Source of the DNA: Catenulispora sp. EB89
GTDB lineage: Bacteria > Actinomycetota > Actinomycetes > Streptomycetales > Catenulisporaceae
Direction of reading: 5' to 3'
Assembly: GCF_041261445.1 (NCBI RefSeq)
Contig: NZ_JBGCCU010000021.1
Span: 1 to 64,000 of the forward strand
DNA: 64,000 nt
In this document: positions 713 through 14,350 of the stretch, in pieces
Numbering within the stretch: the first letter of the stretch is position 1
Layout of the letters: each line of letters opens with the position of its first letter
Notes under the pieces: model-generated
What the model was told of the DNA's origin: nothing
Seen by the model: only the letters and a program-made list of their open reading frames with translations
The model's database searches: none
Position numbers and translations under genes: made by a program

Positions 713-1066
713 TCACGCCGGGTCGGTGACGCCCATCCGCAGGTGGTCGGCGTGGTAGATGGCCTGGTCGAGCAGTTCGGCCACGTGGTTGTCGTAGAGC
801 GCGTAGATCATCGACTTGCCGCGGCGTTCGGCGGTCACCAGGCCGAGGTTCCGCAGTAGGCGCAGTTGGTGGGAGCAGGCCGACTGCTCCATGCCGACCT
901 CGGCGGCCAGGGCGGTCGCGGCCAGTGGTCCTTCGCGCAGCCGGGCCAGGATCAGCAGGCGCGACGGGGTGGCCAGGGCCTGGAGCGTGGTCGCCACCCG
1001 GGCCGCGCTGGCGGCGTCCAGGCGGACGCGCGGTACGGCTTCGGCGGGGGGAGCTCCATGACCCAT
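713..1066 (-). CDS. nmtR: NmtR-type ArsR/SmtB nickel/cobalt-sensing repressor
   Basis: A 117-aa winged-helix repressor of the ArsR/SmtB family. The chosen ATG gives an N-terminus MGHG, as in mycobacterial NmtR, where Gly2 and His3 bind Ni/Co. The other NmtR ligands are visible in the last helix: Asp92, His94, His105 and His108 (in YDNHV and IYHADH). The recognition helix lies in GMEQSACSHQLRLLR (about 58-72). It is divergent from a P1B-type ATPase, with a palindrome between the genes. The expected role is to repress the exporter until Ni or Co binds. A longer frame starting nine codons upstream would lose the N-terminal metal site. Confidence 0.9.
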   Translation of the reverse strand: MGHGAPPAEAVPRVRLDAASAARVATTLQALATPSRLLILARLREGPLAATALAAEVGMEQSACSHQLRLLRNLGLVTAERRGKSMIYALYDNHVAELLDQAIYHADHLRMGVTDPA

Positions 1067-1091
1067 GGTCGAAGTGTACCTGCGCGAACGC

Positions 1092-1107
1092 ATGAACCAT
1101 TATTCAT
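1092..1107. promoter_or_regulatory. Palindromic operator for NmtR
   Basis: The sequence ATGAA-CCATTA-TTCAT is a perfect 5-bp inverted repeat with a 6-bp spacer in the divergent gap between nmtR and the ATPase gene. ArsR/SmtB repressors typically bind such AT-rich palindromes. Its position argues that the ATPase starts downstream, at 1149 or 1170, not at the earlier ATG 1065. Confidence 0.7.
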
Positions 1108-1169
1108 TTGTTCCTGTAGGGTGGGGCCGTCGGACCGTCCGGCGTGCCGTGACCAAGGATTCGCCGCTG

Positions 1170-3125
1170 ATGTCTCCCTTCACCCTGCCCGAGGTCCGGT
1201 GGGCCTCCGCCGCGCTGGTGCTGTTCCTGGTCGCGCTGCCGCTGCAGCTGACGGGGGCGCCCGCGTGGGCCTGGGCCCCGCTGTATGCCGTGGTCTATGT
1301 GACCGGCGGTTGGGAGCCTGGTTGGGCCGGGCTTGGGGCGCTGCGGGAGAAGACGCTGGACGTCGACCTGCTGATGGTGGTCGCCGCGCTGGGCGCGGCG
1401 GCCGTCGGCCAGGTGCTGGACGGTGCCCTGCTGATCGTCATCTTCGCCACCTCCGGCGCGCTGGAGGCGGTCGCCACCCACCGCACCGAGCAGGCCGTGC
1501 GCGGGCTCCTGGACCTGGCGCCCGAGCGTGCCACCCGGATCGCCGCGGACGGCTCCGAAGACGTCGTCGACGCCGTCGCGCTCCGGGTCGGCGACACCAT
1601 CCTGGTCCGGCCCGGCGAGCGCGTCGCCGCCGACGGCCAGGTGGTCCGCGGCGCCTCCGACGTGGATCAGGCCACGATCACCGGCGAGCCGCTGCCGGTG
1701 GCGAAGAACGCCGGCGACGAGGTGTTCGCCGGGACGCTCAACGGCGTCGGTGCGCTGACCGTGCGGGTCGACCGGGCGTCCGCGGACACCGTCGTGGCGC
1801 GGATCGTCGCGATGGTCGAGGAGGCCTCGGCCACCAAAGCCAGGACGCAGCTGTTCATCGAGAAGGTGGAGCAGCGCTACTCGATCGGCATGGTCGCCGC
1901 GACGCTTCTGCTGTTCGCCGTCCCGCTGCTGGCCGGCGCCGCGTTCCAGCCGAGCCTGCTGCGCGCCATGACCTTCATGATCGTCGCCTCACCGTGCGCG
2001 GTGGTGCTGGCCACGATGCCGCCGCTGCTGGCCTCGATGGCCAACGCCGGGCGCCACGGCGTGCTGGTGAAGTCCGCGGTGGTGATGGAACACCTCGGGA
2101 CCACGACCCGCGTCGCCTTCGACAAGACCGGGACGCTGACCGAGGGACGCCCGCGCCTGGCCGAGATCACGGTCCTGCCCGGCGGCGAGTTCGACGAGAA
2201 GCAGATCCTGGCACTCGCCGCCGCCGCTGAGAACCTTTCGGAGCATCCGTTGGCGCGCGCGGTTGTGACTGCGGCGAAGGACGCCGGACTGGAGCTGGCG
2301 CACGCCGAGGACTTCGTGGCCAGGCCAGGACGCGGTGTCAGTGCCCTGATCGACGGTCGGCGCGTCGAGGTCGGGAGTCCGGCGTATCTGCTCGCCGAGG
2401 ACACTGGTGCGGTAAGCACCGGTGCCGCGACCAAGAACGCCATCACCAAGAACGCCATCACCGAGAACGCCATCGCCGCCATGCAAGAGTCCGGCCAGAC
2501 CGCCACCGTCGTCCGCATCGACGGCACGCCGGCCGGGCTGCTGGGCATCGCCGACCGCGTCCGTCCGGCCGCCGCCCGCACGGTCGCCAGGATCGAAGCA
2601 TTGATCGGCACCGCGCCGATCGTCCTCACCGGTGACAACGCCGCCGCCGCACGCCGCCTGGCCGCCGAGGTCGGCATCACCGACGTCCGCGCCGGCCTGC
2701 TCCCCGAGGACAAGGTGAGCGCGGTCCGCGAGTGGGAGGCGGCAGGAGAGCGGGTGCTGCTGGTCGGCGACGGCGTCAACGACGCCCCGGCGCTGGCCGC
2801 CGCGCACACCGGCGTCGCCATGGGCCGGGCCGGCTCGGACCTCGCGCTGGACACGGCCGACGCCGTCGTGATGCGCGACGACCTGGCGACCGTGCCGGCG
2901 GCGATCGCGCTGTCCCGGGCCGCGCGCCGCGTCGTGGTCGCGAACCTGGTGATCGCGGGCGCCATCATCGCCGGCCTGGTGACGTGGGATCTGGCCGGCA
3001 CGCTCCCGCTGCCGCTCGGCGTGCTCGGGCACGAGGGCTCGACGGTCATCGTCGGGCTCAACGGTCTGCGCCTGCTGCGCAAGAGCGTGTGGGACAAGGC
3101 GCTGAACGCAGGCACCGCGGCATGA
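1170..3125 (+). CDS. P1B-4-type Co/Ni efflux ATPase (CtpD/CoaT/NmtA-like)
   Basis: A 651-aa heavy-metal P-type ATPase that would export Co2+ or Ni2+ across the cytoplasmic membrane. Key motifs: TGE (about 171), membrane metal motif SPC at 274-276, phosphorylation site DKTGTLT with Asp318, HP motif (SEHPLA), hinge GDGVND near 533, and HEGST at 621-625 in the last membrane segment. SPC plus HEG-T marks subgroup P1B-4; copper pumps have CPC. There is no N-terminal metal domain. A 15-bp unit encoding KNAIT is repeated around 2430-2478 in the nucleotide-binding domain. GTG 1149 is an alternative start. Regulation by the divergent NmtR is inferred from the operator. Confidence 0.9.
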   Translation: MSPFTLPEVRWASAALVLFLVALPLQLTGAPAWAWAPLYAVVYVTGGWEPGWAGLGALREKTLDVDLLMVVAALGAAAVGQVLDGALLIVIFATSGALEAVATHRTEQAVRGLLDLAPERATRIAADGSEDVVDAVALRVGDTILVRPGERVAADGQVVRGASDVDQATITGEPLPVAKNAGDEVFAGTLNGVGALTVRVDRASADTVVARIVAMVEEASATKARTQLFIEKVEQRYSIGMVAATLLLFAVPLLAGAAFQPSLLRAMTFMIVASPCAVVLATMPPLLASMANAGRHGVLVKSAVVMEHLGTTTRVAFDKTGTLTEGRPRLAEITVLPGGEFDEKQILALAAAAENLSEHPLARAVVTAAKDAGLELAHAEDFVARPGRGVSALIDGRRVEVGSPAYLLAEDTGAVSTGAATKNAITKNAITENAIAAMQESGQTATVVRIDGTPAGLLGIADRVRPAAARTVARIEALIGTAPIVLTGDNAAAARRLAAEVGITDVRAGLLPEDKVSAVREWEAAGERVLLVGDGVNDAPALAAAHTGVAMGRAGSDLALDTADAVVMRDDLATVPAAIALSRAARRVVVANLVIAGAIIAGLVTWDLAGTLPLPLGVLGHEGSTVIVGLNGLRLLRKSVWDKALNAGTAA

Positions 3126-3198
3126 ACGGCGTGAACGGCGTGAGCCGCGCCGAGGGCGAACACGCGGCGCGGCGTTCGTCGATCCGCTCGCGACGCGC

Positions 3199-3999
3199 TC
3201 AGGCAGGCATCGGCAGCAGCATGACCGGTGTCGTCGTGGGCTGAGCCGACCCGCCGGCCGGCTCCACCGTGAGCCCGATGGTCTGTGCGTCGCCCAGGCC
3301 GTGCGCCAGCACCGGTCCGGTGGAGCCGTCGGCGCCGGCGGCCAGCAGCCCGCCCGAGCGGGTCCCGGAGGGCCCCATCATCCACAGCTGGTAGGCCTTG
3401 CCCGGCGGCAGCTTCGCGAGTCCGTCGACGGTGATCGCGGCCGCGTCGTGCGAGCGGGACACGAGCACCGTCCCGACCCCGCCGGTGCGGACGCTTGCGG
3501 TGTCGGTCCGGGCGTCGGGTGCGGACAGCAGTGCGGTGATGCCAGTGCTCTGCTGCCGCGCCTGGTCGAGCTGGTGCTGCTGGTCGCCCGACTGGACGCC
3601 CAGGACCGCCACGGCCGCGGCCAGCCCCGTGGCCAGTCCCCAGCCGAGCGCGGTGAACCAGCGGCGGCGGGGGCGGGGGTTGGGGCCGTGCGACGGCTGC
3701 CGCGACGTCTGCCACGCGGGGCGGGGCGCGGTGTGTCGCGTCGGCGCGTGAGCGAGGACCGGCGCGATCTGCCGGGTGACGGCCACCCGTGCGTCGACCG
3801 CGGCCTTCAACCGCGGCGGCGCGGTCTCGGCGACGGCCGAGGCCAGTAGCGCGGTGGTCTCCTGCAGCTCGGCGACCTCCTGCGCGCAGACCGGGCAGCG
3901 GGCCAGGTGGCGTTCGAACGCGGTGCGTTCCGCCGGGTCCAGCGCGTGGCAGACGTAGGCGCCGGTCAGGGAGTGGACCTCCGGGTCCATCGTGTTCAT
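3199..3999 (-). CDS. rskA: RskA-type anti-sigma-K factor
   Basis: A 266-aa single-pass membrane anti-sigma factor. The N-terminal zinc anti-sigma motif H-x3-C-x2-C (His31, Cys35, Cys38) would hold SigK. A membrane helix lies in the middle (rich in Leu/Ala, after RRRWFTALGW), followed by an extracytoplasmic RskA C-terminal domain (PPGKAYQLWMM, then GLTVEPAGG). The ATG overlaps the sigK stop codon in a TGATG arrangement, so the two are translationally coupled. In mycobacteria RskA is cleaved by regulated proteolysis to release SigK. Confidence 0.9.
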   Translation of the reverse strand: MNTMDPEVHSLTGAYVCHALDPAERTAFERHLARCPVCAQEVAELQETTALLASAVAETAPPRLKAAVDARVAVTRQIAPVLAHAPTRHTAPRPAWQTSRQPSHGPNPRPRRRWFTALGWGLATGLAAAVAVLGVQSGDQQHQLDQARQQSTGITALLSAPDARTDTASVRTGGVGTVLVSRSHDAAAITVDGLAKLPPGKAYQLWMMGPSGTRSGGLLAAGADGSTGPVLAHGLGDAQTIGLTVEPAGGSAQPTTTPVMLLPMPA

Positions 4000-4595
4000 C
4001 ACGCCACCCCCAAGCAGTCGCGGAGTCGGGCCAGCCCGTCGCGCAGACGGGTCTTCACAGTGCCGAGCGGGGTGTCCAGGAGCTGCGCCACCTGCGAATA
4101 GGTGTAGCCGCCGTAGAAGGCCAGCGTCACCGACTGGCGTTGCAGCTCCGTCAGGCCGCCCAGGCAGTGCCGGACGCGCTGCCGGTCCAGCCGCGCCTCG
4201 ACGGCCTCCACCACCTGGTCGAACGGTGCGTCCACCATAAGCTGCGCGTCCCGGGCGTCCCGGCGCGCGGCGGCGTCGGCGGAGCGCACGCGGTCCACGG
4301 CCCGGGCGTGCGCCATGGTCAGGGCCCAGGCGCGGGCCGAGCCGCGGGCCGGGTCGAAGCGGCTGGCGGTGCGCCAGATCTCCACCAGCACCTCCTGCGC
4401 GACCTCCTCGGCCTGGGCCGGGTCGCGCAGGACCCGGCGCGCCACGCCCAGGATCGGGCCGGCGAGCTGCGCGTAGACCGCGTCGAACGCGTCGCGCTCG
4501 CCGAGGGCCACCCGGTGCAGGTGCGACTCCAGCGTCGCCGCCGGCGTCGCCCCCGGTACCGGACTAAGCGTCGCGTCTCCCGATTCTCGACTCAC
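3999..4595 (-). CDS. sigK: ECF RNA polymerase sigma factor, SigK type
   Basis: A 198-aa ECF sigma factor. Region 2 spans about residues 30-100 (EEVAQEVLVEIWRTASRFDP) and region 4 about 135-190, with the helix-turn-helix in YSQVAQLLDTPLGTVKTRLR. I chose the GTG at 4595: it gives normal ECF length and lies 6 bp after a promoter-like CCGAATA, suggesting a leaderless, self-activated transcript. Longer frames run through the divergent promoter region. It is coupled to rskA. The same promoter pattern occurs at three other transcription starts within 9 kb. Confidence 0.9.
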   Translation of the reverse strand: MSRESGDATLSPVPGATPAATLESHLHRVALGERDAFDAVYAQLAGPILGVARRVLRDPAQAEEVAQEVLVEIWRTASRFDPARGSARAWALTMAHARAVDRVRSADAAARRDARDAQLMVDAPFDQVVEAVEARLDRQRVRHCLGGLTELQRQSVTLAFYGGYTYSQVAQLLDTPLGTVKTRLRDGLARLRDCLGVA

Positions 4596-4601
4596 GTCCG
4601 G

Positions 4602-4630
4602 TATTCGGAGCGGAGCCGCGGCCGGATTGG
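4602..4630 (-). promoter_or_regulatory. SigK-type promoter of sigK-rskA
   Basis: Read on the minus strand: CCAATCC (4630-4624), 15-bp spacer, CCGAATA (4608-4602), then 6 bp to the GTG of sigK. It resembles the published mycobacterial SigK consensus (CCATCC, 16-17 bp, CCGAATC) and matches three other promoters in this window. Autoregulation is inferred. Confidence 0.6.
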
Positions 4631-4660
4631 TGCGGACGGGTGATTCACGAAAAACACCGA

Positions 4661-4689
4661 CCAATCCGAATCCGCTCCGGCTCCGAACA
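4661..4689 (+). promoter_or_regulatory. SigK-type promoter of the Tat protein-DUF4331 operon
   Basis: CCAATCC (4661-4667), 15-bp spacer, CCGAACA (4683-4689), divergent from the sigK promoter. A second candidate is TCATC (4697-4701), 17 bp, CCGAATC (4719-4725). Either would give a leader of roughly 180-210 nt before ATG 4909. The rest of 4596-4908 holds no gene I can support. Confidence 0.55.
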
Positions 4690-4908
4690 AGCACCGTCAT
4701 CAGGACCCGGACACTGTCCCGAATCCCCGCGAAGGAGAACTCCCGTGACCTCGAACCGGGACCTTGGTCCGGAGCTTGGCCCGGAGCACGTCGCGACGTC
4801 GCCGGAGCCTGCTGGGGCGCCGCAGTCGAGCGCGTCCTCCCGCACAGCTCAGTCACTCTTTGACAAGGTACAGATATCCCGCAGATCCTCCCCAGGAAGT
4901 AGGCAGGC

Positions 4909-5205
4909 ATGGAATCAGGCATGCAGCAGACCGGCGTGTCCCGTCGAGGTGTCGTGAAAGGCGCGGCCGGCGCCGCGGCCGTCGGCGCCGTGACGCTGGC
5001 CTCCCCGCGCACCGCGCAGGCCGAGACGGCGCCCGCGCCGGCCCGCCCCGGCGCGCGCGGGCCGGTCCATCCCGTGATCGAGGAGACCATGACGGTCCAC
5101 GTGCGCGACGCGCGCGCCGGGCTGCTCGACATCTACGTCGGCGAGCGCCACGTCCAGGTCCGCGACAAGGACCTGGCCGCGCGTCTCATCGCCGCCGCCC
5201 GCTAG
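4909..5205 (+). CDS. Small Tat-exported protein of unknown function
   Basis: A 98-aa protein with a twin-arginine signal: SRRGVVK at residues 11-17, then an Ala/Gly-rich hydrophobic stretch ending near TAQA. The mature part (about 60 aa) holds a single compact block, METIVHV-like (MTVHVRDARAGLLDIYVGE), with charged strands and no cysteine. I do not recognise the fold. A purine-rich site (AGGAAG) precedes both ATG 4909 and ATG 4921; the latter is also possible. It is followed 50 bp later by the DUF4331 gene, so the two probably form one SigK-controlled operon. Tat export suggests the protein folds or binds a cofactor before export. Confidence 0.75.
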   Translation: MESGMQQTGVSRRGVVKGAAGAAAVGAVTLASPRTAQAETAPAPARPGARGPVHPVIEETMTVHVRDARAGLLDIYVGERHVQVRDKDLAARLIAAAR

Positions 5206-5255
5206 TCGACGACCCCTCCCCACGTCCACTCCGCCCAGTAATCGAGGCTCCCCTG

Positions 5256-6647
5256 ATGTCCTCCCACCGCGAAGCTCCCGAGATCTCCAAGGACTCGGTC
5301 GCCGACAGCACCGACCTGTACGCCTTCGTCAGTCCGAACGCGCCTGACACCGTCACCCTGATCGCCAACTACCTGCCGTTGCAGGGTCCGGCCGCCGGCC
5401 CGAACTTCTACGAGTTCGGCGACGACGTGCTGTACGAGATCCACATCGACAACACCGGCGACGGCCGTCCGGACGTGACCTACCAGTTCCGGTTCACGAC
5501 CACCGTCCACAACCCGAACACGTTCCTGTACAACACCGGCCCGATCACCTCGCTGGACAGCGCCAACTGGAACCGCCGCCAGACCTACTCGGTCACCCGC
5601 GTCGACGCCTGGGGCCGCTGCACCATGCTGGGCCAGGGCCTGGCCTGTCCGCCGTGCAACATCGGGCCGCTGTCCACGCCCGACTACCCGGGCCTGGCCC
5701 AGGCCGCGGTGCACAACCTGGGCGGCGGGCGCACGGTCTTCGCCGGCCAGCGCGCCGAGGGTTTCTACGTCGACCTCGGGTCGATCTTCGACCTGGGCGA
5801 CCTGCGGCCGTTCCAGAACCTGCACACCACCTTCAACATCCCCGGCCTGACGCTGAACGCGCAGCAGGGCGTCAACAGCACCGCGCAGCTCAACGTGCAC
5901 AGCATCGCGATCCAGGTGCCGATCACCGACCTGACCCGCGACGGCTGGCACGGAACCAACGTCGCCGACCCGCGCGCGGTGGTCGGCGTGTGGACGACGG
6001 CGTCCCGGCGCAAGGTCACCGTCCGCGAGATCGAGGCCGGCCGGGACGACGAGAACGGCCCGTTCGTCCAGGTCTCCCGGCTGGGCAGCCCGCTGTTCAA
6101 CGAGGTCCTGGTGCCGATGGCGCGCAAGGACGAGTGGAACGCGCTGCCGCCGGCCGACGACAAGCGCTTCGCGCAGTACGTGGCGCACCCCGAACTGGCC
6201 TCGCTGCTGCCGGCCCTGTACCCGGGGGTGTTCCCGAACCTGGCCGCGCTGGACGCCGCCGGCACCGCCCGGGCCGACCTGCTGGCGATCCTGCTCACCG
6301 GTATCCCCTCCGGCGTCATCCCCGGCTTCCAGAACAACACCGGCACCGTGCAGGCCGACATGCTCCGCCTGAACACCGCGATCAAGCCCTCGGCCACCCC
6401 CAACAACCTCGGCCTGCTCGGCGGCGACCTCGCCGGATTCCCCAACGGCCGGCGCGTCGCTGACGACGTCGTCACCATCGAGCTGCGCGCTATCGCCGGC
6501 GTCACCTACGCCCTGGTCGCCACCTACACCCCGGACGCGGCAGCGGGCCTCGTGACCGACTTCAACCCGCCGGTGCCGGGTCTGCCGGCGTATCTGCCGA
6601 CGTTCCCCTACCTCGGCGTCCCCTACAGCGGCTACAGCGTCCAGTGA
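5256..6647 (+). CDS. DUF4331 family protein
   Basis: A 463-aa protein of the DUF4331 family. It begins MSSHREAPEI, the usual start of this family, followed by SKDSVADSTDLYAFVSP and the conserved TYQFRF block around residue 75. The central part has FAGQRAEGFYVDLGSIFDL and the C-terminus ends in a Pro/Tyr-rich tail. There is no signal peptide. Biochemical function is not known. DUF4331 genes commonly sit near ECF sigma factors; here the gene follows a SigK-type promoter and the Tat protein, and its stop overlaps the next start (GTGA). Confidence 0.9.
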   Translation: MSSHREAPEISKDSVADSTDLYAFVSPNAPDTVTLIANYLPLQGPAAGPNFYEFGDDVLYEIHIDNTGDGRPDVTYQFRFTTTVHNPNTFLYNTGPITSLDSANWNRRQTYSVTRVDAWGRCTMLGQGLACPPCNIGPLSTPDYPGLAQAAVHNLGGGRTVFAGQRAEGFYVDLGSIFDLGDLRPFQNLHTTFNIPGLTLNAQQGVNSTAQLNVHSIAIQVPITDLTRDGWHGTNVADPRAVVGVWTTASRRKVTVREIEAGRDDENGPFVQVSRLGSPLFNEVLVPMARKDEWNALPPADDKRFAQYVAHPELASLLPALYPGVFPNLAALDAAGTARADLLAILLTGIPSGVIPGFQNNTGTVQADMLRLNTAIKPSATPNNLGLLGGDLAGFPNGRRVADDVVTIELRAIAGVTYALVATYTPDAAAGLVTDFNPPVPGLPAYLPTFPYLGVPYSGYSVQ

Positions 6648-7006
6648 GCGAGCAGATCCACGGTCCCTCCCCGGCCGGCAGCGTCGTGCTGAATCTGGGG
6701 GCGAACATCGGCGCGCTGATCCTGGAGGCCGACGCGAGCCTGCTCGGTGCTGAGATCGAGATCAGCCGGGCAGACCTCGGTGCCGGTGCCGGTGACCACG
6801 CTGTGCACGCTCACCGCACGCACAGCATGGTCCGCGAACGCCACACCGTCCCGAACCCCCGCTACGACGCGGTCTACCCGGACCTCGAGGCCGGCCGCTA
6901 CACGATCTGGCGGGACGCCGAAACCCCCGACGCGACCATCACCGTCGTCGGGGGACAGATCACCACCCACACGTTCTCGCGCGCAGTGGGAGCGGAGCAG
7001 AGCTGA
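6644..7006 (+). CDS. Conserved hypothetical protein coupled to DUF4331
   Basis: A 120-aa protein starting at GTG 6644, which overlaps the DUF4331 stop codon by 4 bases (GTGA), so it is translationally coupled. It has a beta-rich pattern: VVLNLGANIGALILEA near the N-terminus, then a histidine cluster (DHAVHAHRTHSMVRERH, about 51-67) and a C-terminal RYTIWRDAE block. No signal peptide, membrane segment or catalytic motif that I recognise. The histidine cluster could bind metal. Similar proteins occur as short downstream partners in actinomycetes; function unknown. Confidence 0.8.
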   Translation: MSEQIHGPSPAGSVVLNLGANIGALILEADASLLGAEIEISRADLGAGAGDHAVHAHRTHSMVRERHTVPNPRYDAVYPDLEAGRYTIWRDAETPDATITVVGGQITTHTFSRAVGAEQS

Positions 7007-7372
7007 TCACTCTCCGCGCCGGGGGTCCGCCCCTCGGCGCGGAGACAGTCCGGCCTCGACGCCGAGGACATGGCATGTCCGTTCCCAGGCGAGCGAGGTC
7101 TTGCGGGCTGCCTCCACGGCTTTCGCCAGATCGCGGTGGGACCTGGCGATCTGCTGCGGGTCGCCGCTGTGTTGAGCGGCAGTAAGGCTTTGCTGAGCGT
7201 CGTCGCAGCGCGCAGCTGCGCGCCGCAGCGCCGCCTCCATCTCCTCGCGGCGCTCGGCCAGCTGGGCGATCCAGGCGCCGTGGACGATGGCCTCGGCTTC
7301 CCGGACCAACCGGCTCGGCGCGCTGCGGGAGGCCGCCTTGCGGGTACGGATCGTTCTTCGCAGATGGCACAT
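7007..7372 (-). CDS. Small coiled-coil protein, SigK-type promoter
   Basis: A 121-aa, strongly charged, mostly helical protein (REAEAIVHGAWIAQLAERREEMEAALRR, then a second helix in QIARSHRDLAKAVEAARK), probably a coiled-coil or helical hairpin. No membrane segment. A clear ribosome site (AGGAAGGG) lies 8 bp before the ATG, and a CCAATCC-N15-CCGAATC promoter lies about 23 bp upstream. Its stop abuts the stop of the convergent gene ending at 7006. I do not recognise a family; SigK control is inferred. Confidence 0.7.
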   Translation of the reverse strand: MCHLRRTIRTRKAASRSAPSRLVREAEAIVHGAWIAQLAERREEMEAALRRAAARCDDAQQSLTAAQHSGDPQQIARSHRDLAKAVEAARKTSLAWERTCHVLGVEAGLSPRRGADPRRGE

Positions 7373-7394
7373 CGTCGCGTTCCCTTCCTCCCAT

Positions 7395-7423
7395 GATTCG
7401 GTCCCGGCCGGGTTCCGGATTGG
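7395..7423 (-). promoter_or_regulatory. SigK-type promoter of the coiled-coil gene
   Basis: Minus strand: CCAATCC (7423-7417), exactly 15 bp, CCGAATC (7401-7395). The predicted transcript would start near 7388, giving a short leader that contains the AGGAAGGG ribosome site. This is the closest match in the window to the SigK -10 consensus. Confidence 0.65.
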
Positions 7424-7433
7424 ATCCGGGCGC

Positions 7434-9131
7434 TCAGTGGATGGCGACCGGGATCTGCACGGTCGTCTCGTCCACGTCGTCGGTGCGTACCGTGACGGCC
7501 AGCCGCCACGTGCCGGACAGCGGCAGCGAGGCGTCGCCGATGAGGTGGCCGGCTCCCGCGGTGCGCAGCGTCACCGGCAGCGGGCCCAGCGCGCGGGAGG
7601 CGAGCGTGAAGGACGCCTGGACTTGCAGCACCTGCTCCTGCTTGCCGGTCGGGCCGAGGGTGTAGAGGTGGACGGTGTCGGCGCCGGTCTTCGCCGGGTC
7701 GACGGTCACCTGGACGGTGCCGGTCCCGCCGGGGCCGCCGGTGTCGAACGCGGCCGAGCCGCTGACCGGTCCGGCGGACGCCGCGTGCGCGGTGCGGGCC
7801 GGCGGGGCGTTGACCAGTGCCGCGGTCAGTGCCAGGACGCAGATCCCCACGCTGACCTCGCCGGCCACGGAACGGCGCAGCCTGGAGATCGCGGCGCGGT
7901 CCGTGGTCCCCGGGTTCCGGTCCTCGCGGTGTCGGGCGATCCAGGATCGGGCCAGGTAGCCCAAGCCGATCAGCAGGGCGACGCCGAGCAGCTTGAGCAG
8001 CAGCAGCTTCCCGTACGCGGTGCCGGTCAGCGCCGAGAACGAACCGACCTGCCGCCAGCTCTGGTACGTGCCGGTCCCCACGAGGACGATCACGCAGGAC
8101 AGCGCGACCGGCGAGAACTTGCGCACCATCTCGGCCCGCTCGCCCGGTGTCCCCTGTCCGCCGCGGCGCAGGACGATCGCGCCCAGCATGGTCAGTCCGC
8201 CGAGCCAGACGGCCATCGCGCACAGGTGGGTGACGTCGACCGGCAGCGCGAGGGCCACCTGGATGCCGGTGTCCGAGTGTCCGGAGAAGGCCCACGTCGC
8301 GGCGATCCCCACGGTCAGGACGCCGCCGACCGCCGCTGCCAGCGTGCGGGCCCGCCGCGAGGCGTCCTGGAGGCGGGTGAAAAGCCAGGCCAGCAAGGCG
8401 GCGGCGAGGGCCAGCAGGACCAGCCGGATCCACAGCGCCTCGCCGAGGCGCGTCGACAAGGTCGTGCGCAGCACGCCGGTGTCCAGCGCGCGGCCGATCC
8501 CGAAGCCGGCGCCATAAGGGCCCTGGAGAAGTAGCACGCCGGCGGTGGCTACGGCGAGCCCGCTCCACGCCGACACCAGGAGGATCCGCACGGCCTTGGT
8601 GCGCGCGCCCTTGGGCCACCAGGCGAACACGAACAGCGCCGCGCCGACCAGGACGGCGAAGGAGGTGTAGGCCACGAAGCGTGCCACCGCGTAGAGCGCA
8701 CCGACCGCCTTGCTGCCGGAGGGATTCAGGGTCGAGGAGTTCACCGTGGAGGCGGAGGCCTGGCCGACGTTGAAGGTGAACGCCCCCTGCACCGGATGGG
8801 AGTCCGCGGAGATGACCCGCCACGCGACGGTGTACGTGCCCTGATTCAGTCCGGACGCGACATCGACGGCGACCTCGTCGGCGTGGCCGGGCGGATGTGT
8901 GGGGCTGCCCTCGTCGACTCGGGCGCCGGACGGCGCGAAGACGCGCAGCGCGCCGAACTGCAGCGCCACCGGCTCGTCGAAGGTCACCGACACCTGATGC
9001 GGGGCCGCGGCGACGGTCTGGCCGTCGCTCGGCGAGGTCGCCACGACGGTGGCGTGCGCGAAGGCGCCCTGCGCCGTCAGCACGATCAGGCAGATGACCA
9101 GAGCCGGGAGAACGAGCAGCCGACGAAGCAT
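7434..9131 (-). CDS. CopC-CopD fusion copper-resistance/uptake protein
   Basis: A 565-aa fusion. Residues 1-25 are a signal peptide; the mature protein starts with His (AHATVV), as in CopC copper-binding domains, followed by the CopC fold to about residue 120 (SPSDGQTVA, FDEPVALQFGALRVF, DSHPVQGAFTF). A CopD-like membrane domain with about eight helices follows (about 145-440). The C-terminal 100 residues form an extracytoplasmic beta domain (GTWRLAVTVRTDDVDE). Similar YcnJ-type proteins transport or buffer copper at the membrane. It is the last gene of the seven-gene operon, starting 10 bp after ycnI. Confidence 0.9.
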   Translation of the reverse strand: MLRRLLVLPALVICLIVLTAQGAFAHATVVATSPSDGQTVAAAPHQVSVTFDEPVALQFGALRVFAPSGARVDEGSPTHPPGHADEVAVDVASGLNQGTYTVAWRVISADSHPVQGAFTFNVGQASASTVNSSTLNPSGSKAVGALYAVARFVAYTSFAVLVGAALFVFAWWPKGARTKAVRILLVSAWSGLAVATAGVLLLQGPYGAGFGIGRALDTGVLRTTLSTRLGEALWIRLVLLALAAALLAWLFTRLQDASRRARTLAAAVGGVLTVGIAATWAFSGHSDTGIQVALALPVDVTHLCAMAVWLGGLTMLGAIVLRRGGQGTPGERAEMVRKFSPVALSCVIVLVGTGTYQSWRQVGSFSALTGTAYGKLLLLKLLGVALLIGLGYLARSWIARHREDRNPGTTDRAAISRLRRSVAGEVSVGICVLALTAALVNAPPARTAHAASAGPVSGSAAFDTGGPGGTGTVQVTVDPAKTGADTVHLYTLGPTGKQEQVLQVQASFTLASRALGPLPVTLRTAGAGHLIGDASLPLSGTWRLAVTVRTDDVDETTVQIPVAIH

Positions 9132-9141
9132 GGGGACCGCC

Positions 9142-9906
9142 TCAGTCCGAGGGCGCGGCGTCGGAAGACTTGCGGCGGGCCCGGGAGATGCCGAACGCGC
9201 CGACCCCCAGACCAGCCACGCCGACCGCGATACCCACGCCGCCGAGAGTCCGCGCGGTGGTGTCGCTGCCGGCCGGACTTGCCGCCGCCGGGCCGGCCGC
9301 GACCGACAGCGCGGTGGCCGCGGTATCCGAGGCCTGCGAACCTGACGCCGAACCGGAGCCGGTCAGGGCCAGGACCGGAGCCGGGTGGTCCGGCGCGGGC
9401 TGGCCGGCTTGGGCCAGATCGATCCAGCGCACCACATCGCCGTTCGAGTACGTCTGGACGGCCTTGAACACGAGTTGGTTCGTGTCATCGGGCAGCTTGC
9501 CCAGCATGACGTGGAATCCCTGGTACTGCCCCGGCGCCAGCGCGCCGCCGCTCCAGGTGAGCTCTGAGACGACCTGCGTGACCGTGCCGTCGTCGGTGGT
9601 GACGGGCTTGGGAAGCGTGGCGTTGGTTACCGCGACCGTCCAGCCGGGAGTGGGCTCCGGCAGCACGCCGGTGATCGGATGGTCGGTGGGGAAGACGACC
9701 TCCAGTTTCGTGGTGTTCGCCGCGACTTCCTCGTTCGGGACGCGGAAGGTCAGCTCGACATCGCTGCCGCCTTTGGCGGTCGTGTCCGGACCGATGGTGA
9801 CGTGTGCCGAGGCCAGGCCTGCTGAAGCGAAGACGAACAGCGCCGTGCCGGCGAGGACTGCTGCCAGCGGCTTTCCACCTCGCGACGATCTCTGATGACC
9901 AGACAT
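9142..9906 (-). CDS. YcnI-like DUF1775 copper-associated exported protein
   Basis: A 254-aa exported protein with a signal peptide ending at SAGLASA; the mature protein begins with His (AHVTIGPD), the copper-ligand arrangement of the YcnI/DUF1775 domain (residues about 35-180, including WTVAVTNATLPKP, VVSELTWSGG and a conserved YQGFHVMLGKLP). A linker leads to a C-terminal membrane helix and a basic tail (ISRARRKSSD), so it is likely membrane anchored. ATG 9906 follows AAGGAG at ideal spacing; an upstream ATG at 9924 overlaps that ribosome site. It sits directly before copC-copD, as ycnI does before ycnJ in Bacillus. Confidence 0.9.
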   Translation of the reverse strand: MSGHQRSSRGGKPLAAVLAGTALFVFASAGLASAHVTIGPDTTAKGGSDVELTFRVPNEEVAANTTKLEVVFPTDHPITGVLPEPTPGWTVAVTNATLPKPVTTDDGTVTQVVSELTWSGGALAPGQYQGFHVMLGKLPDDTNQLVFKAVQTYSNGDVVRWIDLAQAGQPAPDHPAPVLALTGSGSASGSQASDTAATALSVAAGPAAASPAGSDTTARTLGGVGIAVGVAGLGVGAFGISRARRKSSDAAPSD

Positions 9907-9939
9907 CACGGTTCTCCTTTCCACGGCCCGGCGTGGATG

Positions 9940-10359
9940 TCAGCCGGCGGCCGGAGCTTTGGCGCGGCTTCGGCGTGGCCTGATGATCAGCGGCGTCAGC
10001 GCCGCCACGGCCGCACCCTGGCCGATCAGAGCCCAGACCTTGTCGGCGTACCAAAGCGGCTCGTACATGTTCGGAAGCGGCCCGATCGCGCCGGGGTTCG
10101 CGTAGCGGTAGAACAGGATCGCCGCCAGGCCCGCGGCCGCGGTCAGCCAGGCGAAGGCGTCTCCGGCGCGCCGCCGCCACAGCACGACCAGCACGGCGGC
10201 GAGGATCGCGGCGCCCGCCTCGATGCGGAACAGCGTGCCCTGGCTGACGACCGACGAGCTGATCGGGTCGTAGCGGTGCGCCAGTTTCAGGTGGATGTAG
10301 GCGTCCACTACCAGGCCGGCGGCTGCGATCGCCCGCAGAGCGACAGGGATGACCGTCAT
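9940..10359 (-). CDS. Four-helix membrane protein of the copper operon
   Basis: A 139-aa protein with four predicted membrane helices (about 5-22, 45-62, 70-86 and 105-125) and a basic C-terminus (RPRRSRAKA). Conserved-looking polar residues include His23 (AYIHLKLAHRYD) and a PNMYEPLWYADK loop. I do not know its function. An AGGAGG-type ribosome site precedes the ATG, and it starts 10 bp after the cupredoxin gene, so it belongs to the operon. A role in metal or redox transfer is suggested by context only. Confidence 0.75.
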   Translation of the reverse strand: MTVIPVALRAIAAAGLVVDAYIHLKLAHRYDPISSSVVSQGTLFRIEAGAAILAAVLVVLWRRRAGDAFAWLTAAAGLAAILFYRYANPGAIGPLPNMYEPLWYADKVWALIGQGAAVAALTPLIIRPRRSRAKAPAAG

Positions 10360-10369
10360 CAGGGGCCTC

Positions 10370-10825
10370 CTATCCGACCGTTAGGGTGCCGTGCATCGAG
10401 GCGTGGATGGTGCAGACGTACGGATACGCGCCGGGAGTGGTCGGGGCGGTGATCGTCGCCGACTTGCCGGGGTTGAGGGCGCCGGTGTCGAAGGCGGCGC
10501 CGGAGCTGGCCGTCAGGGTGTGGGTCACGGAGTCGTGGTTCACGACGGTGATGGTCTGCCCAGGGTGCACGGTGAGGTTCGCCGGGCTGAACGCGAAGTT
10601 GTCGATGACGATCTGCGCGGCGGCCGTTGTGCTCGGTGCCGTGCTTGGTGCGGTACTCGGCGCCGGCGTACTCGGGGCCGTGGTCGTCGAGGGCGCGGTG
10701 GGGGAGCTCGGCGCCGTCGCGGGCGGCGTGCTGCTCTTGCTCGTCGTCGAGGAGCAGCCGGCGGCCGCGAGGATCACGAGGGCGGCCGGGACCGCGACGC
10801 GTCGCAGGGTTCTGGTTCTGGTCAT
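10370..10825 (-). CDS. Cupredoxin lipoprotein (plastocyanin-like)
   Basis: A 151-aa lipoprotein: signal with lipobox AAGC (Cys at about 24), a long Ser/Thr/Pro linker (about 25-68) that would span the cell wall, then a cupredoxin domain (about 70-151). Type 1 copper ligands are visible: His in NHDSVTHTL, and Cys, His and Met in the C-terminal loop VCTIHASMHG. It probably carries electrons or buffers copper outside the membrane. The ATG has an AAGGGA ribosome site; the longer frame upstream has none. It lies between the Cys-rich lipoprotein and the four-helix membrane protein in the operon. Confidence 0.88.
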   Translation of the reverse strand: MTRTRTLRRVAVPAALVILAAAGCSSTTSKSSTPPATAPSSPTAPSTTTAPSTPAPSTAPSTAPSTTAAAQIVIDNFAFSPANLTVHPGQTITVVNHDSVTHTLTASSGAAFDTGALNPGKSATITAPTTPGAYPYVCTIHASMHGTLTVG

Positions 10826-10838
10826 GGCGCTTTCCCTT

Positions 10839-11396
10839 CTACTTGCCGGTCCAGCAGCCGAGGATGTCGGTGGTGACCTCGTAGGCCACATCGGCGCGGC
10901 TGAGCTTGCTCGCGCCGGATGTCGCCGGCAGGCCGGTGGCATCGACGTGCAGGGTCTTGTCGTCCTTCAGGACGACGACGTGCCCGGCGGCGTTCTGGAA
11001 CCCGGGGTTGCCCAGGCCCTCGCTGCCGGTGAGCGGCGTGGTGGAGCCCAGTTGGTGCTTGAGCGCCGCGAGGTAGGCGTTCGCGGACGGAGCGTCCGGC
11101 GATTCCTTCACCGACAGCACGAGCGTGCTGGACCCCAGGTGATACGTGCAGGTGTAGAGGTGGTCGGTCCAGGTGGCCGTGGTGGTCGGGGCCGGCGTGG
11201 CAGCCAGGATCGTCTCCACCGCGGTCTGGATCTCCGTGTCGCAGACCATTCGCGCGGACGCGGAGGGCCCGGCCGCCGTTGAAGCAGCGGACGACGTGCT
11301 CGGAGCGGGGGCGGCCGGCGTGGCGGCCTTCGCCGACGCGCAGCCGGCCATCGCGGCCGTCACGGAGACGGCGGCGAGGAGTCTCAGTCCCCTCAT
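10839..11396 (-). CDS. Lipoprotein of unknown function
   Basis: A 185-aa lipoprotein with lipobox MAGC near residue 19, an Ala/Pro/Ser linker to about 45, and a globular domain with Cys pairs (VCDTEIQTAVETILAA and LYTCTYHLG) plus one Cys near the C-terminus (ILGCWTGK). The pattern of a short alpha/beta domain following a linker resembles many actinomycete surface lipoproteins, without a known function. A GGAGGA ribosome site precedes the ATG. It is 20 bp downstream of the sortase gene. Confidence 0.75.
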   Translation of the reverse strand: MRGLRLLAAVSVTAAMAGCASAKAATPAAPAPSTSSAASTAAGPSASARMVCDTEIQTAVETILAATPAPTTTATWTDHLYTCTYHLGSSTLVLSVKESPDAPSANAYLAALKHQLGSTTPLTGSEGLGNPGFQNAAGHVVVLKDDKTLHVDATGLPATSGASKLSRADVAYEVTTDILGCWTGK

Positions 11397-11416
11397 GATG
11401 TCCTCCTCTCTGGCGG

Positions 11417-12142
11417 TCAGGCCGGGTGCGTCCCGGTCAGGGTGGCGTAGACGACGATGTCGTCCAGGTAGTGCTGGTTCTCGAACGGTCCGGCACAGGT
11501 GATCAGCCGGAGCTGCGGGTTCGTGGTGTTGCCGTAGACGGTCAGGGTCGGGAACGAGCTCTTGGCGTACTTGTTGACGCCGTCGATCCGGAACACGGCC
11601 ACGGTGTGGTCGCTGCGCGTCACGTCGACCGTCTCGCCGGGCCGCAGCGCGCCCAGGTTGTAGAAGACGCCCTCGGCACCGGTGGTGCCGTCGATGTGGC
11701 CGACGATGACCGCCGGTCCGATCTGGCCCGGAGCCGGGGAGTAGCGGTACCAGCCCGGAACTTCGGGTGCGGTCAGGGGCGGCGTCTGGATGCTGCCGTC
11801 CGAGTTCTGGCCCAGCTGGATCAGCGTGTGGCTCACGCCGATCTCCGGGATGCTGATCGCGGTCGGCGTGGCCGCCGGGGCTGGCGACTTCTGGGGCGTC
11901 GTCGGTGTTACCGAAGGCGACGTCGTCGAAGGCGGTGTCGTCGACGGCGGCACAGTGGGCGCTGTCGACATGCTGGAGGCCGGCAGCGCGGCCGAGGCCG
12001 GCGGCTGCGGCGGATGGTGCTGCGCGGAGAGCCCGAGGACCAGCGTCCCCACCGAAGCCAGCAGGAGGACGGCAGCCGCCGACGCCAGCAGACGCCGGCG
12101 GCCACTACCGAACAGCCTTGTCAGCAAGGACATGACCGACAT
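11417..12142 (-). CDS. Class F sortase
   Basis: A 241-aa sortase with an N-terminal membrane anchor (about 15-35), a Pro/Thr-rich spacer to about 88 and a sortase barrel. Catalytic His149 lies in VGHIDG and Cys216 in LITCAGPF, with the class F pattern ending HYLDDIVVYA; the Arg of the triad is probably in the same strand or nearby (LRLITC). Sortases cut a C-terminal signal and attach proteins to the wall, but class F enzymes often lack clear substrates. Its only neighbour with a C-terminal membrane helix and basic tail is the CHRD-like protein 6 bp upstream. Confidence 0.88.
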   Translation of the reverse strand: MSVMSLLTRLFGSGRRRLLASAAAVLLLASVGTLVLGLSAQHHPPQPPASAALPASSMSTAPTVPPSTTPPSTTSPSVTPTTPQKSPAPAATPTAISIPEIGVSHTLIQLGQNSDGSIQTPPLTAPEVPGWYRYSPAPGQIGPAVIVGHIDGTTGAEGVFYNLGALRPGETVDVTRSDHTVAVFRIDGVNKYAKSSFPTLTVYGNTTNPQLRLITCAGPFENQHYLDDIVVYATLTGTHPA

Positions 12143-12148
12143 GACTGC

Positions 12149-12946
12149 CTACTTCTGGACGGCGTTCCGGCGCCGCAGGTACAGCGCGCCACCAGCGGTG
12201 GCCGCCAGGCCCGCGCTCGCGGCGAACATCCACGGCTGCTGCAGACCCGAGGTCCCGCCGCCGCCGGTGTTCACCCCGCCGCCGGGCACCGAAGACATCT
12301 GCGACACCTGGAGCGGGCCGCACAGCGCCGGCGAGGTCGCGGCCAGCGGCAGCGACGGAACCAGGTCGCTGGGCTCGGCCTGCGCCTGGGCGCTGAGGGT
12401 CGTCGGGTCCAGGCCGTGGACCACGATCACGGCCTTGCCGGCCTCGATCGAGGACACGGTCGCCGAGTCCAGGGTGATGGTGCGCGAATAGCTGTACGAT
12501 CCGCCGGACGGCGCGATCTTCACGTCGGTGCCGGCCGCCGGACTGGTGTCCCCGCTGACGCTCAGCGTGGTACCGATCCCGCCGTAGAACGAGGCGCCTT
12601 CGGTGGTGCTGACCACGCCGTCGCCGTTCTTGTCGGCCGAGGCGGTCGGGCAGGTGCCCGCGGCACCGATGTGGATGTGCTGGACGTGCGGATAGGCCGC
12701 GCCCATGAAGGTCGTGGCCAGCCCCTGCACGTTCTCGGTGATGACGGCCTGGTCACCGTTCAGCTGAAGCATCAGCGTCCCGGAGCCGGTGGCGTGGTTC
12801 AGCGGGTTCAGCGTCGCCATGTAGGTGGCGGTGCCGGACGTCTGCGCGCTGGCCGTCGAGGCGGCGAAGGCCAGCGGAAACGCCAGCAGGGCCGCGGGGG
12901 CGGCGGCCAGCGCCAGGATCCTGGTGGTTCTCTTCGGGTGCGTCAT
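12149..12946 (-). CDS. CHRD-like exported, C-terminally anchored protein
   Basis: A 265-aa exported protein: signal peptide to about residue 35 (AASTASA), then a CHRD-like domain (ATLNPLNHATGSGTL, then HVQHIHIGAAG near residue 88). A loop DKNGDGVVSTTEG (about 104-116) looks like a calcium-binding EF-type loop inserted in the domain. A Gly-rich linker, a membrane helix (about 237-256) and LRRRN tail end the protein. No LAXTG or LPXTG motif is evident. It heads the seven-gene copper operon, behind a SigK-type promoter about 140 bp upstream. Confidence 0.82.
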   Translation of the reverse strand: MTHPKRTTRILALAAAPAALLAFPLAFAASTASAQTSGTATYMATLNPLNHATGSGTLMLQLNGDQAVITENVQGLATTFMGAAYPHVQHIHIGAAGTCPTASADKNGDGVVSTTEGASFYGGIGTTLSVSGDTSPAAGTDVKIAPSGGSYSYSRTITLDSATVSSIEAGKAVIVVHGLDPTTLSAQAQAEPSDLVPSLPLAATSPALCGPLQVSQMSSVPGGGVNTGGGGTSGLQQPWMFAASAGLAATAGGALYLRRRNAVQK

Positions 12947-13084
12947 CGTGCTCTCCTCCAGCTAGCGGTTCAGCTCCGGATGACGTCTCTGATCTGCGGG
13001 TGGGCGATCGCCCACGAGGAGCAGGGACTGAAGGACGATGTGCGTCGGGGGTCCGGGAGCGCATCGGCTCGACCTTCAGGGGGT

Positions 13085-13113
13085 GATTCGGAGACGTCGG
13101 TACATCGGATTGG
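13085..13113 (-). promoter_or_regulatory. SigK-type promoter of the seven-gene copper operon
   Basis: Minus strand: CCAATCC (13113-13107), 15 bp, CCGAATC (13091-13085). The predicted start would leave a leader of about 130 nt before the CHRD-like gene. It is identical in both boxes and spacing to the promoter at 7395-7423. Confidence 0.65.
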
Positions 13114-13194
13114 TGGAGGATCTGAACCGCTGGCTGGAGGATGGTTGGCGAGCCGCTGGGCCGCCGGGCCGATGCCCTGGTGGGGCCCGGTTTT

Positions 13195-14343
13195 TCAGAC
13201 TGCGACGACGCCCTCGCCGCCGACGGCGTCCGGGACGGTCTCGGAGCCGATCGGGCTGAGCGTGCCGTCGGGGTTGATCGCGTACTCGTCCACGATGCCC
13301 TGGCCTCCGGTCTGCACGTACAGGAAGCGGCCGTCGCGCGAAGCCGCGGAGTCGACGGTGCCCGGGTCGGTGGCCGCGGTGCCGATCGGCGCCAGCGCAC
13401 CGCCCGCGCCGGCGCGGTAGATGCTGACGGTCGCGCTGCCGGCGTTGGAGGCGTACAGCAGATCGCCGACCGCGGTGATCCAGCAGGTCGCCTGCTGGCC
13501 GGTGGCCGCGGTCTGCCGGGGCGTGAGTGTTCCGTCGTGGTTCACGGTGAAGGAGGCCACGGCGTTCGGGCCGGCCTCGGTCAGGTACAGGGTCCGGCCG
13601 GCCGGGTCGGTGACGAAGGCGAACGGCACCGCGTTCGGAAGGTTGGTCACCACCGGGGCCGGCGCGGGGGCGCCGTCGTCGTCGAGGGCGAAGACGTCGA
13701 CATCGTTGCCGTTGGCCTTGGTGGTCACGACCAGCTTGTGGCCCCAGTCGGCGAACCCGACCTGACCGGGGGTGTTCGTGAACTGCGGCGTGGCGTTCGG
13801 GTCCAGCCCGAGGGGCCGGTTCCAGCCGTGGCGCGGGTGCAGACGACCGTCCTCGACGGTGTAGCCCTGGACCGAGCCGCCGTTCAGGGCGTTGAGGACG
13901 TACACCGTGTCCTCGTGCGCGGCGACGCTCACCGGGAAGGTGCCGCCGGACGGGATGATCTGCCGCAGCCGCAGCCGATCCCCGTGGACGGCGAAGACCG
14001 ACACCGTGTTGCTCCCGGCGTTGACCGCGTAGAGCAGGCTGTTCTCGCGGTCGAAGGTCAAAGAGCCCTGCGAGGCGAGGTGGTCGACCATCGACCCGTC
14101 CAGGACGCCGCCGAGCCCGCCGGTGTCGTAGGCGGCGAGCCGGGTGAGGCGGCCGTCGTCGCCGCGGTGGTAGACGACGACCTGGTTGCCGGTCGTGGCG
14201 TCGGTCTGCGCGAACACGACCCCGCCGGCACCCCGGTGGAAGCCGGGCCGGCCGTGCGCCGCGGCCGAGGCCGGGCCGGCCGAGACGCTCGTCGCCGCGA
14301 GGAGCGCCGCGGCCGCGGCCCCGAAACGCATGACGTTCTGCAT
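13195..14343 (-). CDS. Secreted seven-bladed beta-propeller (lactonase-like)
   Basis: A 382-aa exported protein with signal peptide to about residue 28 (GPASAAAHG), then repeated propeller blades with the pattern LYAVNAGSNTVSVF, VYVLNALNGGSVQGY, LYLTEAGPNAVASF and LYASNAGSATVSIY. This matches the lactonase/YVTN propeller superfamily; catalytic activity is not certain. The ATG 14343 is preceded by GGAGGG at good spacing, which lies in a perfect hairpin (14351-14380). A longer frame to 15414 crosses the divergent DUF5994 gene and is not real. It ends 80 bp from the next SigK-type promoter. Confidence 0.88.
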   Translation of the reverse strand: MQNVMRFGAAAAALLAATSVSAGPASAAAHGRPGFHRGAGGVVFAQTDATTGNQVVVYHRGDDGRLTRLAAYDTGGLGGVLDGSMVDHLASQGSLTFDRENSLLYAVNAGSNTVSVFAVHGDRLRLRQIIPSGGTFPVSVAAHEDTVYVLNALNGGSVQGYTVEDGRLHPRHGWNRPLGLDPNATPQFTNTPGQVGFADWGHKLVVTTKANGNDVDVFALDDDGAPAPAPVVTNLPNAVPFAFVTDPAGRTLYLTEAGPNAVASFTVNHDGTLTPRQTAATGQQATCWITAVGDLLYASNAGSATVSIYRAGAGGALAPIGTAATDPGTVDSAASRDGRFLYVQTGGQGIVDEYAINPDGTLSPIGSETVPDAVGGEGVVAV

Positions 14344-14350
14344 GGGAATC

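Follow-up and report, generated by a model that had tools for sequence, protein, structure and literature searches.

The promoter element and the genes that it precedes

This analysis concerns a promoter element in the first 64,000 nucleotides of contig NZ_JBGCCU010000021.1 of Catenulispora sp. EB89 (assembly GCF_041261445.1); this whole stretch is called the window throughout. The element, CCAATCC-N15-CCGAAYM, combines a -35 and a -10 box with a 15-base spacer. It is found ahead of a sigK-rskA pair, encoding an extracytoplasmic function (ECF) sigma factor and its anti-sigma factor, ahead of a divergent unit for a twin-arginine translocation (Tat) signal protein and a DUF4331 protein, ahead of a single small gene, and ahead of a seven-gene operon for copper (Cu) proteins and a class F sortase (Table 1). 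A preliminary description had listed these four sites and placed them at gene starts. Each of them fits the motif letter by letter at the reported position, including the 15-base spacer, and each heads a gene, while the spacer contents vary between the sites.

These four are the only matches without mismatch in the window, whose G+C content is 70%; an order-2 Markov model predicts 0.0013 exact matches per 64 kb. Thus, the motif is not equally common at random sites, the possibility that the preliminary description had itself raised against its proposal. When up to three mismatches are allowed, 13 matches compare with 15 expected from shuffles, and therefore only the exact class is informative; window sites with two or three mismatches were considered as extra targets and rejected, as they show no surplus over shuffles. 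The genome-wide search (11.9 Mb in 70 contigs) that had been proposed as a check revealed 6 exact matches, compared with 1 for the reversed control, and both matches beyond the window belong to another sigK locus, L007 on contig C9. With one mismatch allowed, the whole genome contains 11 matches versus 7 for the reversed control; among the five additional sites, the setting was inspected for one, on the photolyase side of the C9 locus, and it fits.

The identification of the sigma factor as SigK with an RskA-type partner holds, as the protein exceeds the cut-off of the NCBIfam SigK model and its neighbour contains an RskA_C domain. The same model gave 83 matches in the whole genome, of which 2 exceeded the cut-off of 226 and the next best reached 95.6 bits; a control search comprised 14 genomes, and none of the 8 named ones is a Mycobacterium. 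The closest sequence match of the window SigK in the PDB is Mycobacterium tuberculosis SigK (4nqw). Its residues C144 and C194 are invariant in 15 of 15 sequences and align with the cysteines of 4nqw, and cysteines 133 and 183 of M. tuberculosis SigK have been tied to redox behaviour (accessible portion of PMC7509140; the same scope applies to the papers cited below). The anti-sigma factor exceeds the zf-HC2 cut-off, and its RskA_N score of 23.6 bits lies under the cut-off of 27. The -10 box of the sigK promoter, six bases and a GTG follow each other directly, and the sigK transcript is therefore probably leaderless.

The genome carries two SigK-RskA pairs. At the C9 locus, Pfam matches identify a photolyase gene divergent from genes for an amine-oxidase-type flavoprotein, a DUF1365 and a DUF1295 protein, followed by sigK and rskA, an order which presumably corresponds to mycobacterial Rv0449c-Rv0444c and which we call canonical. 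The two SigK copies are 88% and the two RskA copies 70% identical over their aligned parts, and a single clade for the window-type SigK copies was considered but not adopted, its tree support being 45/67. The C9 locus contains three elements, two exact and one with a single mismatch on the photolyase side, and an exact element precedes both sigK copies, as would be the case for autoregulation. Of the proposal that the four window sites define a SigK regulon, the part that the element behaves as a SigK promoter is retained; because the canonical locus has the same element, the regulon appears to be wider than the window and to include these three further sites. Either SigK could act on the sites of both loci.

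The genes of the operon are separated by 6, 20, 13, 10, 33 and 10 nt. For the gene 1 product, an AlphaFold2 model (mean pLDDT 77.7) has a superoxide dismutase (SOD) fold, with Cu/Zn SODs as top rows in Foldseek and VIA-align. Cu/Zn SODs bind Cu through histidines 46, 48, 63 and 120, and H90-x-H92 and H177 of the gene 1 protein fit three of these ligands by eye, with no invariant histidine between residues 92 and 177. The protein is not classed as a SOD, and one of its homologs scores as CHRD. It is predicted to be the wall-anchored substrate of the gene 2 sortase; in a scan of five homologs, three passed the cut-off and two were just under. In the gene 4 cupredoxin, the C-x2-H-x2-M motif aligns with solved cupredoxins and the H, C, H, M pattern is kept. 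The predicted mature N-terminal histidines of the gene 6 and gene 7 products align with the first residue of solved YcnI and with the solved CopC domain of YcnJ, respectively, and we take these YcnI, CopC and cupredoxin residues to be metal ligands. The seven-gene operon does not include a Cu-exporting ATPase. The heavy-metal P-type ATPase near rskA was considered as a Cu member and rejected, because it scores 331.9 bits against a Cu-ATPase cut-off of 397, has no SigK motif in front and contains an SPC motif, presumably of the non-copper type. Calling this a complete extracellular Cu set, as had been done, is therefore too strong.

Table 1. Genes and promoter elements in positions 1065-13113 of the window (nt, nucleotides; aa, amino acids)
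Feature	Position	Strand	Evidence and remarks
Heavy-metal P-type ATPase	1065-3122	+	Over Cd-family cut-off; ends shortly before rskA (opposite strand); also in the relative G001
rskA-type anti-sigma factor	3199..4002	-	PF10099 RskA_C 99.5 bits, cut-off 29.4
sigK (window copy)	3999..4595	-	NCBIfam SigK model 264.8 bits, cut-off 226
SigK-type promoter, sigK-rskA	4602..4630	-	Exact CCAATCC-N15-CCGAAYM; GTG 4595, 6 nt past -10 box
SigK-type promoter, Tat protein-DUF4331 unit, divergent from sigK	4661..4689	+	Exact motif; ATG 4909, 219 nt past -10 box
98-aa Tat-signal protein	4909..5205	+	NCBIfam Tat signal domain over cut-off
DUF4331 protein	5256..6647	+	PF14224 478.6 bits
120-aa protein, no known family	6644..7006	+	Overlaps DUF4331 stop; no Pfam/NCBIfam match; 88% identical in G001
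121-aa protein, coiled-coil in the preliminary description	7007..7372	-	No Pfam match
SigK-type promoter, coiled-coil gene	7395..7423	-	Exact motif; ATG 7372, 22 nt past -10 box
Gene 7, CopC-CopD fusion (YcnJ-like)	7434..9131	-	PF04234 and PF05425
Gene 6, YcnI-like (DUF1775)	9142..9906	-	PF07987 160.7 bits
Gene 5, small membrane protein, no known family	9940..10359	-	No Pfam/NCBIfam match
Gene 4, cupredoxin	10370..10825	-	PF13473 51.8 bits
Gene 3, putative lipoprotein, no known family	10839..11396	-	No Pfam/NCBIfam match; lipobox-like start by eye
Gene 2, class F sortase	11417..12142	-	NF033748 190 bits, cut-off 166
Gene 1, secreted Cu/Zn-SOD-fold protein with GVDTG sorting signal	12149..12946	-	NF058571 36.7 bits, cut-off 29
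SigK-type promoter, seven-gene copper/sortase operon	13085..13113	-	Exact motif; ATG 12946, 138 nt past -10 box

Just upstream of the operon promoter and on the same strand, positions 13198-14346 (-) encode a lactonase-type beta-propeller protein (PF10282). The operon leader (12947-13084, minus strand, about 130 nt) contains stretches common to several relatives, e.g., around CAGAGACGTCATC; a search for known RNA elements gave no Rfam match in 4500-13400, leaders included.

The element and the operon in related genomes

In ten genomes of the genus, CCAATCC-N(7-25)-CCGAAY gave 96 matches, of which 38 have a spacer of 15, while the reversed control gave 9 in all; for pairs ending in CCGAAT, the spacer is 15 in 32 of 33 cases. 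Sixty relatives contain 73 exact matches, distributed over 40 genomes, versus 2 for the reversed control, and in 296 genomes of the class CCAATCC-N15-CCGAAT occurs 77 times in 46 genomes and its reversed form not at all. SigK exceeds the cut-off in 158 of these 296 genomes, namely in 44 of the 46 with the motif versus 114 of the 250 without it (Fisher p 1.8e-11, a value inflated by shared ancestry). At the sigK loci of the genus, the succession of -10 box, six bases and GTG is found in all ten with sequence viewed, of 11. The edge letters of the -10 box vary, since it reads CCGAATG at one locus and TCGAATC at another.

The best 80 of 563 confirmed named SigK loci were searched with either C or T at the first -10 position. 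The element is present in 40 of them, with 51 matches in 1.5 Mb compared with 0 for the reversed form. It precedes the DUF4331 gene in 18 of the 27 loci that have one and the amine oxidase gene in 7 of 17; in 12 of the 80, it is located no more than 300 nt upstream of the sigK match. In 5 of 20 distant loci, it is located before genes for a GVDTG protein and a sortase. Taken together, these comparisons support the conclusion that CCAATCC-N15-CCGAAT, in which the -10 box may also begin with T, behaves as a SigK promoter throughout the class. Exact motifs also occur between sigK and the DUF1295 gene at three canonical loci (L044 at 5743 and 7493; L049 at 3145 and 4858; L051 at 12161 and 13853), where they probably head further targets outside our reference set.

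Several observations weigh against this conclusion. The exact element is absent from 114 of the 158 SigK genomes of the class sample, and two genomes contain the motif without a SigK over the cut-off. As half of the best 80 loci hold the element and few of them carry it directly upstream of sigK, the exact pattern is not universal, and in the genus genome G007 both the sigK and the operon site are degenerate but recognisable. The sole PDB sequence match of the window anti-sigma factor is 3hug_B, which we take to be RslA and not RskA. The site at 7395 is the weakest of the four and poorly kept in relatives. Of four loci in which the coiled-coil gene was found, the window alone has the exact motif; L047 differs by one mismatch, L219 has 16 bases between the boxes, and L043 lacks the site.

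Orthologs of operon gene 1 were found eight times, in 7 of the 10 genus genomes; two of the three genomes without it are incomplete (77% and 81%) and the third, G009, is 99% complete. The exact motif lies ahead of 7 of the 8 orthologous operons. In these seven, pairwise identity is 100% for both boxes, 57% for the spacer and 31% for the 45 bases upstream; when G007 is included, the values for the eight loci are 100% (-35), 89% (-10), 54% and 31%, respectively. The sequences thus support conservation of the operon promoter beyond its flanks. G001 represents a natural deletion: it has no adjoining sigK-rskA pair, yet operon and DUF4331 unit are retained with their motifs, the DUF4331 site being identical. 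Its single SigK match is located at the canonical locus, in an assembly of 870 contigs with 6% contamination, which suggests that the canonical SigK is able to act on the Cu operon.

A sigK-rskA pair directly precedes the operon in G004 and G007. In G005, the wall genes are located directly behind the canonical pair and no Cu gene was detected up to the contig end, whereas the other six genomes with gene 1 have YcnI-like, CopC-CopD-like and cupredoxin genes alongside, one of the two copies in G004 being partial. Cu genes therefore look like an addition made in this genus to an older SigK-sortase module. The SOD-fold GVDTG protein and the class F sortase would constitute this older wall module, which also follows SigK motifs in distantly related families. 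A full Cu set beside SigK was not seen outside the genus when the window proteins were compared by blastp with the best 80 named and 20 class-level loci; single matches are copCD in L185 and cupredoxin in L121 and L191. G004 has a further unit of this kind (L045, 10199-12612), which carries a motif with one mismatch and encodes a cupredoxin, a 40% SigK-like sigma factor and a 40% DUF4331 protein. Relatives of the GVDTG protein and the class F sortase also lie beside sigK, without an exact motif, in L109, L116 and L126 (Actinoplanes and two Micromonospora records).

Proposed regulation and alternative explanations

From the positions and conservation of the elements and their co-occurrence with SigK, which the genome comparisons establish, we infer the actual transcription, the sites at which each SigK acts and the trigger. 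It is likely that the element is the SigK-RskA promoter of this class and that both pairs stand under it, freed SigK driving the Cu and wall units as well as the units of the photolyase arm. A membrane signal would inactivate RskA, presumably by stepwise proteolysis as in mycobacteria. Freed SigK would then transcribe sigK-rskA itself, with a leaderless start, the Tat protein-DUF4331 unit, and the operon for the wall-sorted SOD-fold protein, its class F sortase, cupredoxin, YcnI and CopC-CopD. At the C9 locus, it would transcribe the amine-oxidase/DUF1365/DUF1295 operon and probably the photolyase gene.

We think that the trigger is envelope redox or photo-oxidative stress, with the Cu proteins as output and Cu not as the only signal. 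This is preferred because the canonical arm resembles the singlet-oxygen regulon of Rhodobacter, because of the conserved SigK cysteines, and because of reports on light, UV and metals. Of three Mycobacterium kansasii genes with putative SigK sites, two were raised by light and one, dipZ, was not (PMC9861118), and RskA abundance was lower under UV in a soil actinobacterium (PMC8965627). In M. tuberculosis, the protease Rip1, which cleaves RskA, is needed for survival of Cu (PMC10449499). A rip1 mutant is, however, sensitive to metals independently of the known sigma pathways of this species (PMC8131098), which speaks against transferring the Rip1-Cu link to the present system.

Cu itself could be the signal, the window SigK-RskA pair being a dedicated Cu sensor-regulator and the canonical pair inactive on these genes. 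The vicinity of sigK and the Cu operon, which are directly adjacent in G004 and G007, and the retained metal-site residues of YcnI, CopC-CopD and cupredoxin are in line with this explanation, but both pairs have the same promoter, G001 retains operon and motif with the canonical SigK alone, and the wall genes of G005 follow the canonical pair with no Cu gene detected. The canonical arm moreover consists of photolyase and lipid-type enzymes, and the rip1 result points in the same direction, which makes this explanation rather unlikely. Less probable still is that the promoters are genuine but that another regulator or a leader element mainly runs the Cu operon, with a minor part for SigK: the leader is 84% identical between G000 and G001 over the first 45 nt, yet the boxes are identical in seven loci in which the 45 bases upstream share only 31% identity, and the region is without an Rfam match.

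A different ECF sigma factor with the same promoter preference might use the sites instead, as the many SigK-model matches under the cut-off illustrate how rich the genome is in such factors, and as two genomes have the motif without a SigK over the cut-off. The fixed distance of the element from sigK itself and the way in which its presence tracks SigK across the class make this very improbable. A chance or dispersed repeat, for which nothing but the small number of sites speaks, is practically eliminated by the counts in the genome, the 60 relatives and the class, the Markov expectation, the differing spacer contents and the fixed spacer length.

Returning to SigK as the acting factor, we tentatively propose, as one possibility, a class-wide photo-oxidative or envelope-redox factor, whose old output would be lipid and DNA protection, DUF4331 and the sortase-anchored SOD-fold protein, and to which the genus added a Cu supply line that possibly loads the wall protein. 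If this is true, SigK would switch on a Cu-charged antioxidant cell wall.

Relation to known systems

That a SigK-controlled Cu regulon had not been described agrees with our search, which found none in the openly licensed literature, most subscription papers lying outside its coverage. In the same literature, judged in part from titles, listings and abstract openings, we found no paper that joins SigK with CCGAAT or DUF4331 with a sigma factor, and no description of YcnI linked to SigK regulation, of the regulation of a class F sortase/GVDTG pair, or of one SigK switch that joins Cu, wall-anchored and light- or oxidation-damage genes. Even in mycobacteria, the stimuli of SigK-RskA are called obscure (PMC9861118). 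A promoter that can be read as a pattern, combined with a few modules that recur as targets (sigK itself, DUF4331, SOD-fold protein with sortase, amine oxidase with photolyase, and here Cu proteins), would allow the regulon to be predicted and its signal to be tested in harmless soil actinobacteria. SigK is also proposed as the regulator of a class F sortase together with the GVDTG-tailed substrate.

The pair resembles M. tuberculosis SigK-RskA (ECF18/ECF19) in SigK and RskA_C homology and in the two redox cysteines. Different from that system, two pairs exist in one genome, and in place of mpt70/mpt83 the putative targets comprise Cu proteins, DUF4331, a SOD-fold wall protein and a sortase. 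The preliminary description likened the element to a mycobacterial SigK consensus, CCATCC-N16/17-CCGAATC. The window anti-sigma factor matches a zinc-finger domain, whereas RskA of M. tuberculosis is reported not to depend on a zinc finger (PMC7406223).

The canonical arm shares photolyase and an RSP_1091-like flavin amine oxidase as targets with the Rhodobacter RpoE-ChrR singlet-oxygen regulon, although no Cu or sortase genes are named for the latter in the accessible portions of the two sources; the SigK-like RpoE of R. capsulatus is 34% identical to M. tuberculosis SigK, and the locus of this SigK/RskA-like pair is induced by singlet oxygen (PMC5507510, PMC7074977). The DUF1775 and CopC-CopD proteins, with their mature N-terminal histidines, correspond to Bacillus YcnI-YcnJ, but here their genes belong to an operon behind an ECF-type promoter that also encodes a SOD-fold wall protein, a class F sortase and a cupredoxin. 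RSP_1090 of Rhodobacter we assume to be a DUF1365 protein, like the one in the C9 operon. Finally, the adjacent genes 1 and 2 exceed the cut-offs of both NCBIfam models for the class F sortase and its GVDTG-tailed substrate, and differ from that pair in having a SigK promoter and Cu genes attached.

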